Below are positions 27,919-37,992 of a stretch of 64,000 bases of DNA, in pieces. The position numbers and the translations under genes were made by a program. The notes under the pieces were generated by a model, which searched no databases, was not told the origin of the DNA, and saw only the letters and a list, made by a program, of their open reading frames with translations. Origin of the DNA: an uncultured Candidatus Melainabacteria bacterium (GTDB taxonomy: Bacteria > Cyanobacteriota > Vampirovibrionia > Gastranaerophilales > Gastranaerophilaceae); NCBI GenBank assembly GCA_947570135.1, contig CANOTP010000007.1:1-64000 (forward strand), written 5' to 3'. Within the stretch, counting starts at the first letter, position 1, and the number at the start of each line of letters is the position of its first letter.

Positions 27919-27966
27919 GTATCCTTACCGCGTTTAGATAATAACAATTAAATAAGAGGAAATGAA

Positions 27967-28068
27967 GTGAATATCTTCAACTGCTGGCGCAGCCGTAAAA
28001 GTCGGAATGCTCTAAAAAATAATTCATACCTACGCACAGTTTGGGTAAAAATTAAGGAAATTTTTTAA
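27967..28068 (+). CDS. 33-residue basic protein, unknown
   Basis: GTG start behind AAGAGGAAATGAA; begins MNIFNCWRSRKSRN and ends YLRTVWVKIKEIF. Net strongly positive with two tryptophans. The stop is directly followed by the stem of a strong terminator, so the transcript of the uracil-DNA glycosylase appears to end exactly here. The coherent ribosome-binding site, frame and terminator support a real gene; I know no family. Confidence 0.6.
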   Translation: MNIFNCWRSRKSRNALKNNSYLRTVWVKIKEIF

Positions 28069-37639: not shown

Positions 37640-37726
37640 TTGAGTTCTCCTTCTTTTACGTATAATATATTACACATGCTTAATTTATAACAAACAAACA
37701 TAAACTTCAACGGGGTTTTATTACTA

Positions 37727-37755
37727 TTGACAAAATATATAAAATCGTAAATAAT
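37727..37755 (+). promoter_or_regulatory. Antisense promoter opposite the 24-residue peptide gene
   Basis: TTGACA (37727-37732), 17-bp spacer, AATAAT (37750-37755). Transcription would begin near 37762 and run antisense through the peptide gene at 37812-37886; no credible plus-strand gene lies ahead of it. Near-consensus elements in a 350-bp gap make this a good candidate for an antisense RNA promoter. Confidence 0.6.
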
Positions 37756-37811
37756 ATGCATGTAGGGGGAACCCTAACGAAGTTCCGTTTCATAAGAGTT
37801 CCACTTCATAC

Positions 37812-37886
37812 CTACAAGAATAATAAAGCAATTTTAAGAGCTGCTATCACTGTAATGATTGCAGCTTTTATTATTCGCTTAATCAT
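37812..37886 (-). CDS. 24-residue hydrophobic basic peptide, candidate type I toxin
   Basis: Reads MIKRIIKAAIITVIAALKIA then LLFL: one membrane-length hydrophobic helix with four basic residues, typical of type I toxin peptides. A very strong AGGAGGTGG site lies 6 nt before the ATG. A TATAAT on the same strand at 37972-37977 would give a leader of about 80 nt. A promoter on the other strand (37727) reads through the gene in antisense. The locus fills the otherwise empty gap between fba and the Sfp-type gene. Confidence 0.6.
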   Translation of the reverse strand: MIKRIIKAAIITVIAALKIALLFL

Positions 37887-37992
37887 ACTTACCACCTCCT
37901 TTCTGACCTCATTCCTTCATAGTCTGTGTGTCAGAGGGTAGTAAGTTGTAGATACTTACCTACTTGCAGTTATTATAGTATGTAATATAAAA

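Follow-up and report, generated by a model that had tools for sequence, protein, structure and literature searches.

A unit of about 280 bp, inserted between an Sfp-type gene (sfp) and fba in an uncultured Candidatus Melainabacteria bacterium, very probably belongs to a new family of loci resembling type I toxin-antitoxin systems. It was found in a window of 64,000 nucleotides (positions 1 to 64,000 of contig CANOTP010000007.1), and its features are collected in Table 1. According to this explanation, the minus strand would give a short mRNA with a tight fold, encoding a 24-residue, basic, hydrophobic peptide, which probably inserts into the membrane and would be toxic. The Shine-Dalgarno sequence (SD) of this mRNA would be hidden by a local hairpin and the mRNA ends would be able to pair, so that little peptide should be made by default. 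From a strong-looking promoter on the plus strand, an RNA of about 114 nt would start with a stem-loop opposite the 3′ UTR of the mRNA, cross the coding region and end at a terminator that the peptide codons themselves contain; its pairing with the mRNA, leading to decay or block, would neutralise the toxin. By sequence comparison, the putative family proves to be large and previously undescribed, with copies across the non-photosynthetic cyanobacteria of the gut and in some phages of these bacteria.

Table 1. Features of the inserted unit (window coordinates) and, in the last row, Abi_2-like loci of other contigs
Feature	Position	Strand	Details or basis
Whole inserted unit	37713..37992	.	One edge just past the stop codon of sfp, the other just short of GTTGAAG, which is upstream of fba
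Antisense promoter TTGACA-17-AATAAT	37727-37755	+	11/12 matches
Predicted peptide mRNA, ~225 nt	37740..37965	-	Ends inferred from the -10 element and from the 3′ hairpin plus U-rich sequence
3′ hairpin TGTAGG...CCTACA	37761..37816	.	mRNA side holds the stop codon; equals the 5′ stem-loop of the predicted antisense RNA
Predicted antisense RNA (antitoxin), ~114 nt	37762..37875	+	Spans the 3′ UTR and the larger part of the CDS; from promoter and terminator positions
CDS, 24-aa basic hydrophobic peptide	37812..37886	-	MIKRIIKAAIITVIAALKIALLFL; GRAVY 1.99
Stem-loop plus T-tract within the CDS, probable antisense terminator	37838..37875	+	GAGCTGCTATCACTGTAATGATTGCAGCTT + TTATTATT; -13.0 kcal/mol
SD AGGAGGTGG	37892-37900	-	Sequence; kept across the family
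5′ UTR hairpin TCTGAC...GTCAGA, joining anti-SD to SD	37902..37935	-	Fold and covariation
Anti-SD ACTTACTACCC	37936..37946	-	Pairs with the SD in the fold
mRNA 5′ end, pairing with the 3′ end (37757-37766)	37959..37969	-	MFE fold
-10 element TATAAT of the peptide mRNA	37972..37977	-	Sequence; without a good -35 in the window copy
Abi_2-like genes with the antisense module behind	L322:8793-9488, L117:1571-2272, L256:138-806	- (all)	PADLOC PD-T4-5 matches

The first-pass annotation had placed a candidate locus at 37700-37992, between fba and the Sfp-type gene, and the insert delimited here is a nearly identical interval. Its bounds follow from a locus comparison with the closest relative, G026 (sfp, a PPTase, 86% identical; fba, an aldolase, 98% identical), since in that genome the sequence passes straight from the sfp stop codon to the fba-upstream sequence, leaving the junction intact without the unit. 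The gene fba is directly downstream of the unit and on the same strand as the peptide gene, a position that would suit a leader or attenuator regulating the aldolase gene. Yet G026 has fba and the same close upstream region in the absence of the element, and other copies adjoin unrelated genes (integrase, Lgt, isocitrate/isopropylmalate dehydrogenase (Iso_dh), DJ-1/PfpI). The empty site and these scattered contexts contradict regulation of fba, which is highly improbable. Elsewhere in the window, the neighbour gene at 38588-39532 matches LdpA_C, a cyanobacterial family, and an AdoCbl-II (cobalamin) riboswitch is located at 27944-28020 (+; 44 bits).

Concerning the anatomy of the window copy, the 24-codon minus-strand frame for a basic hydrophobic peptide, its strong ribosome-binding site and the TTGACA-17-AATAAT promoter opposite the peptide gene were all present as first annotated. 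The TATAAT ascribed to the peptide gene was also there, but it belongs to a promoter without a good -35 element, the hexamer 17 nt upstream being GATTTT, at the insertion edge. In other copies, the commonest -35 of the peptide promoter is TAGACA or TTGACA, and across the family this promoter is mostly TAGACA-17-TATAAT, 6-8 nt before a conserved AGGGTA; a score of at least 10/12 was reached by 45% of the copies versus 3% of shuffled controls. Because of its poor -35, the window copy may be weakly transcribed into peptide mRNA. Many copies (e.g. L052, L053, L086 and L097) have upstream of them a conserved ATATTATTAAG, only a few bases away from the -35 of the peptide promoter; it may represent an UP element, the site of a regulator or a footprint of insertion. 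On the opposite strand, among 159 copies, the antisense promoter keeps TTGACA in 146, AATAAT in 137 and a spacer of 17 in 139.

A DNA search of the same genome returned further copies at 69-73% identity. Wider searches were run with a covariance model (R1) of the 3′ hairpin plus the antisense promoter, which found five strong copies in that genome. Within the genus, 20 of the 46 species have the unit, and a genome can contain as many as 13 copies. At higher ranks, it was present in 122 of the 286 sampled genomes of the order, all but one of them in a single family (f1), and in 83 of the 386 genomes of the phylum sample, all in f1. The antisense promoter pattern also occurs in named records, many of which are MAGs of Candidatus Gastranaerophilales or Melainabacteria; others are labelled only as 'bacterium', a few as Brachyspira, Fusobacterium CAG:439 or Muribaculaceae. 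One record of the last kind that carries the module, JAMPCZ010000047.1 (L214), seems to be the same as G014:C105, from the genus of the window, and its label looks wrong. No phage or plasmid record matched the unit by BLAST; a pattern scan retrieved two viral contigs with the module. A complete copy (MVDKIIMLLLAFAITVIALKLHQL) at L323:2501-2805 lies on a viral contig, where it separates a tape-measure-like gene from the tail gene that follows.

The peptide was sought in these related genomes, and its frame proved to be kept, so that a lack of frame conservation, which would have refuted the first-pass annotation, is firmly ruled out. Among the 159 distinct copies that were read, a short hydrophobic open reading frame with an SD is present in 139; it starts mostly at -69 and stops mostly at +6 relative to the module, the stop usually being the TAG of the 3′ hairpin. 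The peptides are mostly of 21-34 residues, with a mean GRAVY of 1.53 and a net charge mostly from +1 to +4, and N/S was about 0.49 of expectation over 140 close pairs, which are non-independent. A small hydrophobic reading frame with its own ribosome-binding site is conserved, as in type I loci. Several unrelated peptide classes occupy one RNA frame, and at some loci (L136, L140, L199) copies that encode different peptides stand in tandem. The classes include IKxAIxxxIAxL, to which the window copy belongs, IDKIIMLLLAFxxxVIALK, 32-mers ending in KEKVPELELLELFLKS, and the further classes DNFNISLLLIFLILYILKNG, RELIKKALAILELLIKLI, KALVILELLAKLILAI and ITEKALWLILLIII. Searches of Pfam and NCBIfam with ten representative peptides gave no match at E up to 10, although their power is low with such short queries, and no Rfam 15 family reached its gathering score over the region; RT-16, mir-458 and snoU109, with weak Rfam matches far below gathering scores, were rejected as the RNA family.

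These data bear on the view that the unit is a miniature element, mobile or repetitive (MITE- or REP-like), with palindromes that leave a reading frame open by chance. In favour of this view, the insertion is discrete and G026 has the site empty, the ends are complementary, and the spread is multi-copy and patchy. However, a non-coding element is not what was found, as conservation extends to the frame, the SD, both promoters and the positions of start and stop, N/S is below expectation, and several peptide classes have been swapped within one frame; moreover, the divergence of the copies in the same genome speaks against a recent burst. A mere repeat element is an improbable explanation, and mobility itself is compatible with the unit being a toxin-antitoxin locus.

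The coding region of the proposed toxin carries a second layer of information. Of the AT-rich inverted arms inside the gene that had been thought to end the antisense RNA, the idea of a terminator within the gene stands as likely, but the arms alone do not provide it; the signal would rather be the stem-loop GAGCTGCTATCACTGTAATGATTGCAGCTT followed by TTATTATT. A strict terminator scan did not flag this stem-loop and T-tract. Across the family, by a rule of our own, an antisense stem-loop plus T-tract was present in 74 of 132 coding sequences (only 56%) versus 16 of 132 synonymous recodings, an enrichment that favours an antisense terminator in the CDS. In the same 132 sequences, the antisense strand of the CDS folded with a mean of -21.2 kcal/mol versus -10.6 kcal/mol for synonymous recodings (mean z -3.3). 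The sense strand was also over-stable by this comparison (z -3.1), and since the two strands fold alike, the stability of the CDS alone cannot tell which of them matters. Within the peptide class of the window copy, 20 of 38 sequences show compensatory change at the CDS base pair 23-46 and 15 at the base pair 24-45, and therefore residues 8-9 change jointly with residues 15-16, in the combinations SA with AL, TV with TV, and AA with AA. Taken at the level of sequence, these comparisons show selection acting on the reading frame and on the coding-region hairpin.

Concerning the peptide mRNA, the sense RNA 37750-37980 folded with -76.1 kcal/mol, compared to -46.7 ± 4.0 kcal/mol in dinucleotide shuffles. 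With this z of -7.4 and the same layout recurring in about 160 copies, the features of the window are beyond chance. Compensatory change supports both flanking hairpins: the 5′ UTR hairpin with 52 cells versus 14 in shuffles (53 sequences), and the 3′ hairpin with 103 cells versus 28 (41 sequences). In silico, in the nascent RNA of 100 copies, the SD was unpaired with a value of 0.23, versus 0.41 when the upstream UTR was shuffled. Pairing of the 5′ and 3′ ends amounted to a mean of 5.6 expected pairs in 100 copies, with covariation support that is partial only. The 3′ CCCTA has two possible partners, the 5′ AGGG and, at the stop codon, TAGGG; pairing with the second covaries more strongly, so a switch of the mRNA between the two is possible, although unproven. 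Trimming of the 3′ end did not expose the SD in silico (access of 0.23 in both the full-length and the trimmed RNA). In these models, as in type I systems, the primary mRNA would be folded, with its SD masked, and translationally inert.

The way in which copies decay was followed from both sides. Several copies retain the antisense part, while the start codon or the 5′ half of the peptide gene is gone. These orphans were found with the antisense-module model, which biases their count, and a model of the 5′ UTR (R2), searched in the genus at E<1e-3, served as a counter-check. It gave 49 matches, 45 of which keep an adjoining antisense module. Among the four without a standard module, two have no peptide reading frame and one has a diverged module with an antisense promoter TTGAAA-16-TATAAT; the sole intact solo peptide frame has its -10 changed to TGGGAT and its SD hairpin damaged. 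The copies L023 and L027, at first taken for orphan antisense RNAs, are instead 5′-decayed or diverged members of the 32-residue peptide class. Survival of the antisense part together with near absence of solo peptide genes is what a poison-and-antidote pair predicts. A small peptide other than a toxin (a signal, a holin-like peptide or a membrane regulator) kept under antisense control would account for the features of the unit as well, because they fit any peptide that needs silencing. Nevertheless, no linked exporter or regulator was found in the scanned flanks, and tandem copies, phage carriage, loss of start codons and the near absence of intact solo peptide genes better fit a poisonous product; a harmless peptide is therefore considered unlikely.

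Regarding the likeness of the proposed toxin-antitoxin family to known systems, Ibs/Sib, Ldr/Rdl and Fst/RNAII are under the control of antisense RNA, and Ibs and Ldr form tandem arrays. The resemblance to Ldr, Ibs and Fst first proposed for the window copy holds in design, i.e. in layout only. These systems share with the present one tiny hydrophobic peptides (PMC8309996) and an antisense RNA, here predicted. They differ in that the unit has no Pfam, NCBIfam or Rfam match, and the family peptides listed do not contain the PXXXGC motif of Fst/Ldr. The protein models of Fst/Ldr, Ibs, Hok and other named toxin families were matched by none of the ten representatives (Pfam and NCBIfam, E up to 10, at low power). 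As far as tested, the unit does not appear to be a sequence member of Ldr, Ibs, Fst or any other named family.

By analogy, the nearest system in design is AapA/IsoA of Helicobacter, with several chromosomal copies, a small membrane-active peptide and a cis antisense RNA, and with a highly folded, inert mRNA in which anti-SD hairpins and 5′-3′ end pairing take part (PMC6733600). The multiple copies have a counterpart here and so, as predicted from sequence, do the small membrane-active peptide, folded mRNA, anti-SD hairpin, end pairing and cis antisense RNA; on the other hand, no sequence relation was found and the lineage is another. In AapA/IsoA, the anti-SD is at the 3′ end and is freed by 3′ trimming, a behaviour not reproduced here in silico, whereas in the present family the SD would be masked by a local, upstream anti-SD and the antisense terminator is predicted to lie within the CDS. 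Another relevant case is MsoT1/MsoA1 of Microcystis, which a report of 2025 presents as the first cyanobacterial candidate for a type I system (PMC12390103). It has in common an antisense RNA, here predicted, but His-tagged MsoT1 is of ~8.8 kDa with two predicted TM helices, while the peptides of the present family, mostly of 21-34 residues, have one hydrophobic stretch.

Three loci combine the antisense module with a gene of another kind. Their Abi_2-like genes match PADLOC PD-T4-5 with E from 1e-12 to 1e-14, Pfam Abi_2 remaining below its cut-off, and each is followed by a convergent TTGACA...AATAAT promoter, with a hairpin at the stop codon of the gene. Only for these loci is AbiF/RCd22 of C. 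difficile relevant, an Abi_2 protein with an RNA antitoxin (PMC12373285). The likeness consists of an Abi_2 protein plus an RNA, here predicted; RCd22, a binder of the protein, is encoded upstream and on the same strand, whereas in the Abi_2-like loci the promoter is downstream and convergent. A wider reading, tentative and on balance somewhat doubtful, is that of a portable antisense-RNA module, spread by phages and transposition within one bacterial family, that would silence at least six unrelated peptide classes and also Abi_2-like defence proteins. In the peptide genes, one palindrome would then both encode a membrane helix and end the antitoxin RNA, and amino acids would co-vary because the bases must pair.

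Before the Microcystis candidate of 2025, type I systems were known only in Proteobacteria, Firmicutes and Tenericutes (PMC12390103). If the proposed explanation is true, the gut Gastranaerophilales would hold a lineage-wide type I family, with up to 13 copies per genome, suited to the study of toxin-class swapping on one RNA frame and of a peptide and a terminator sharing the same bases. The Abi_2 link, if true, would tie antisense-RNA control to phage defence.
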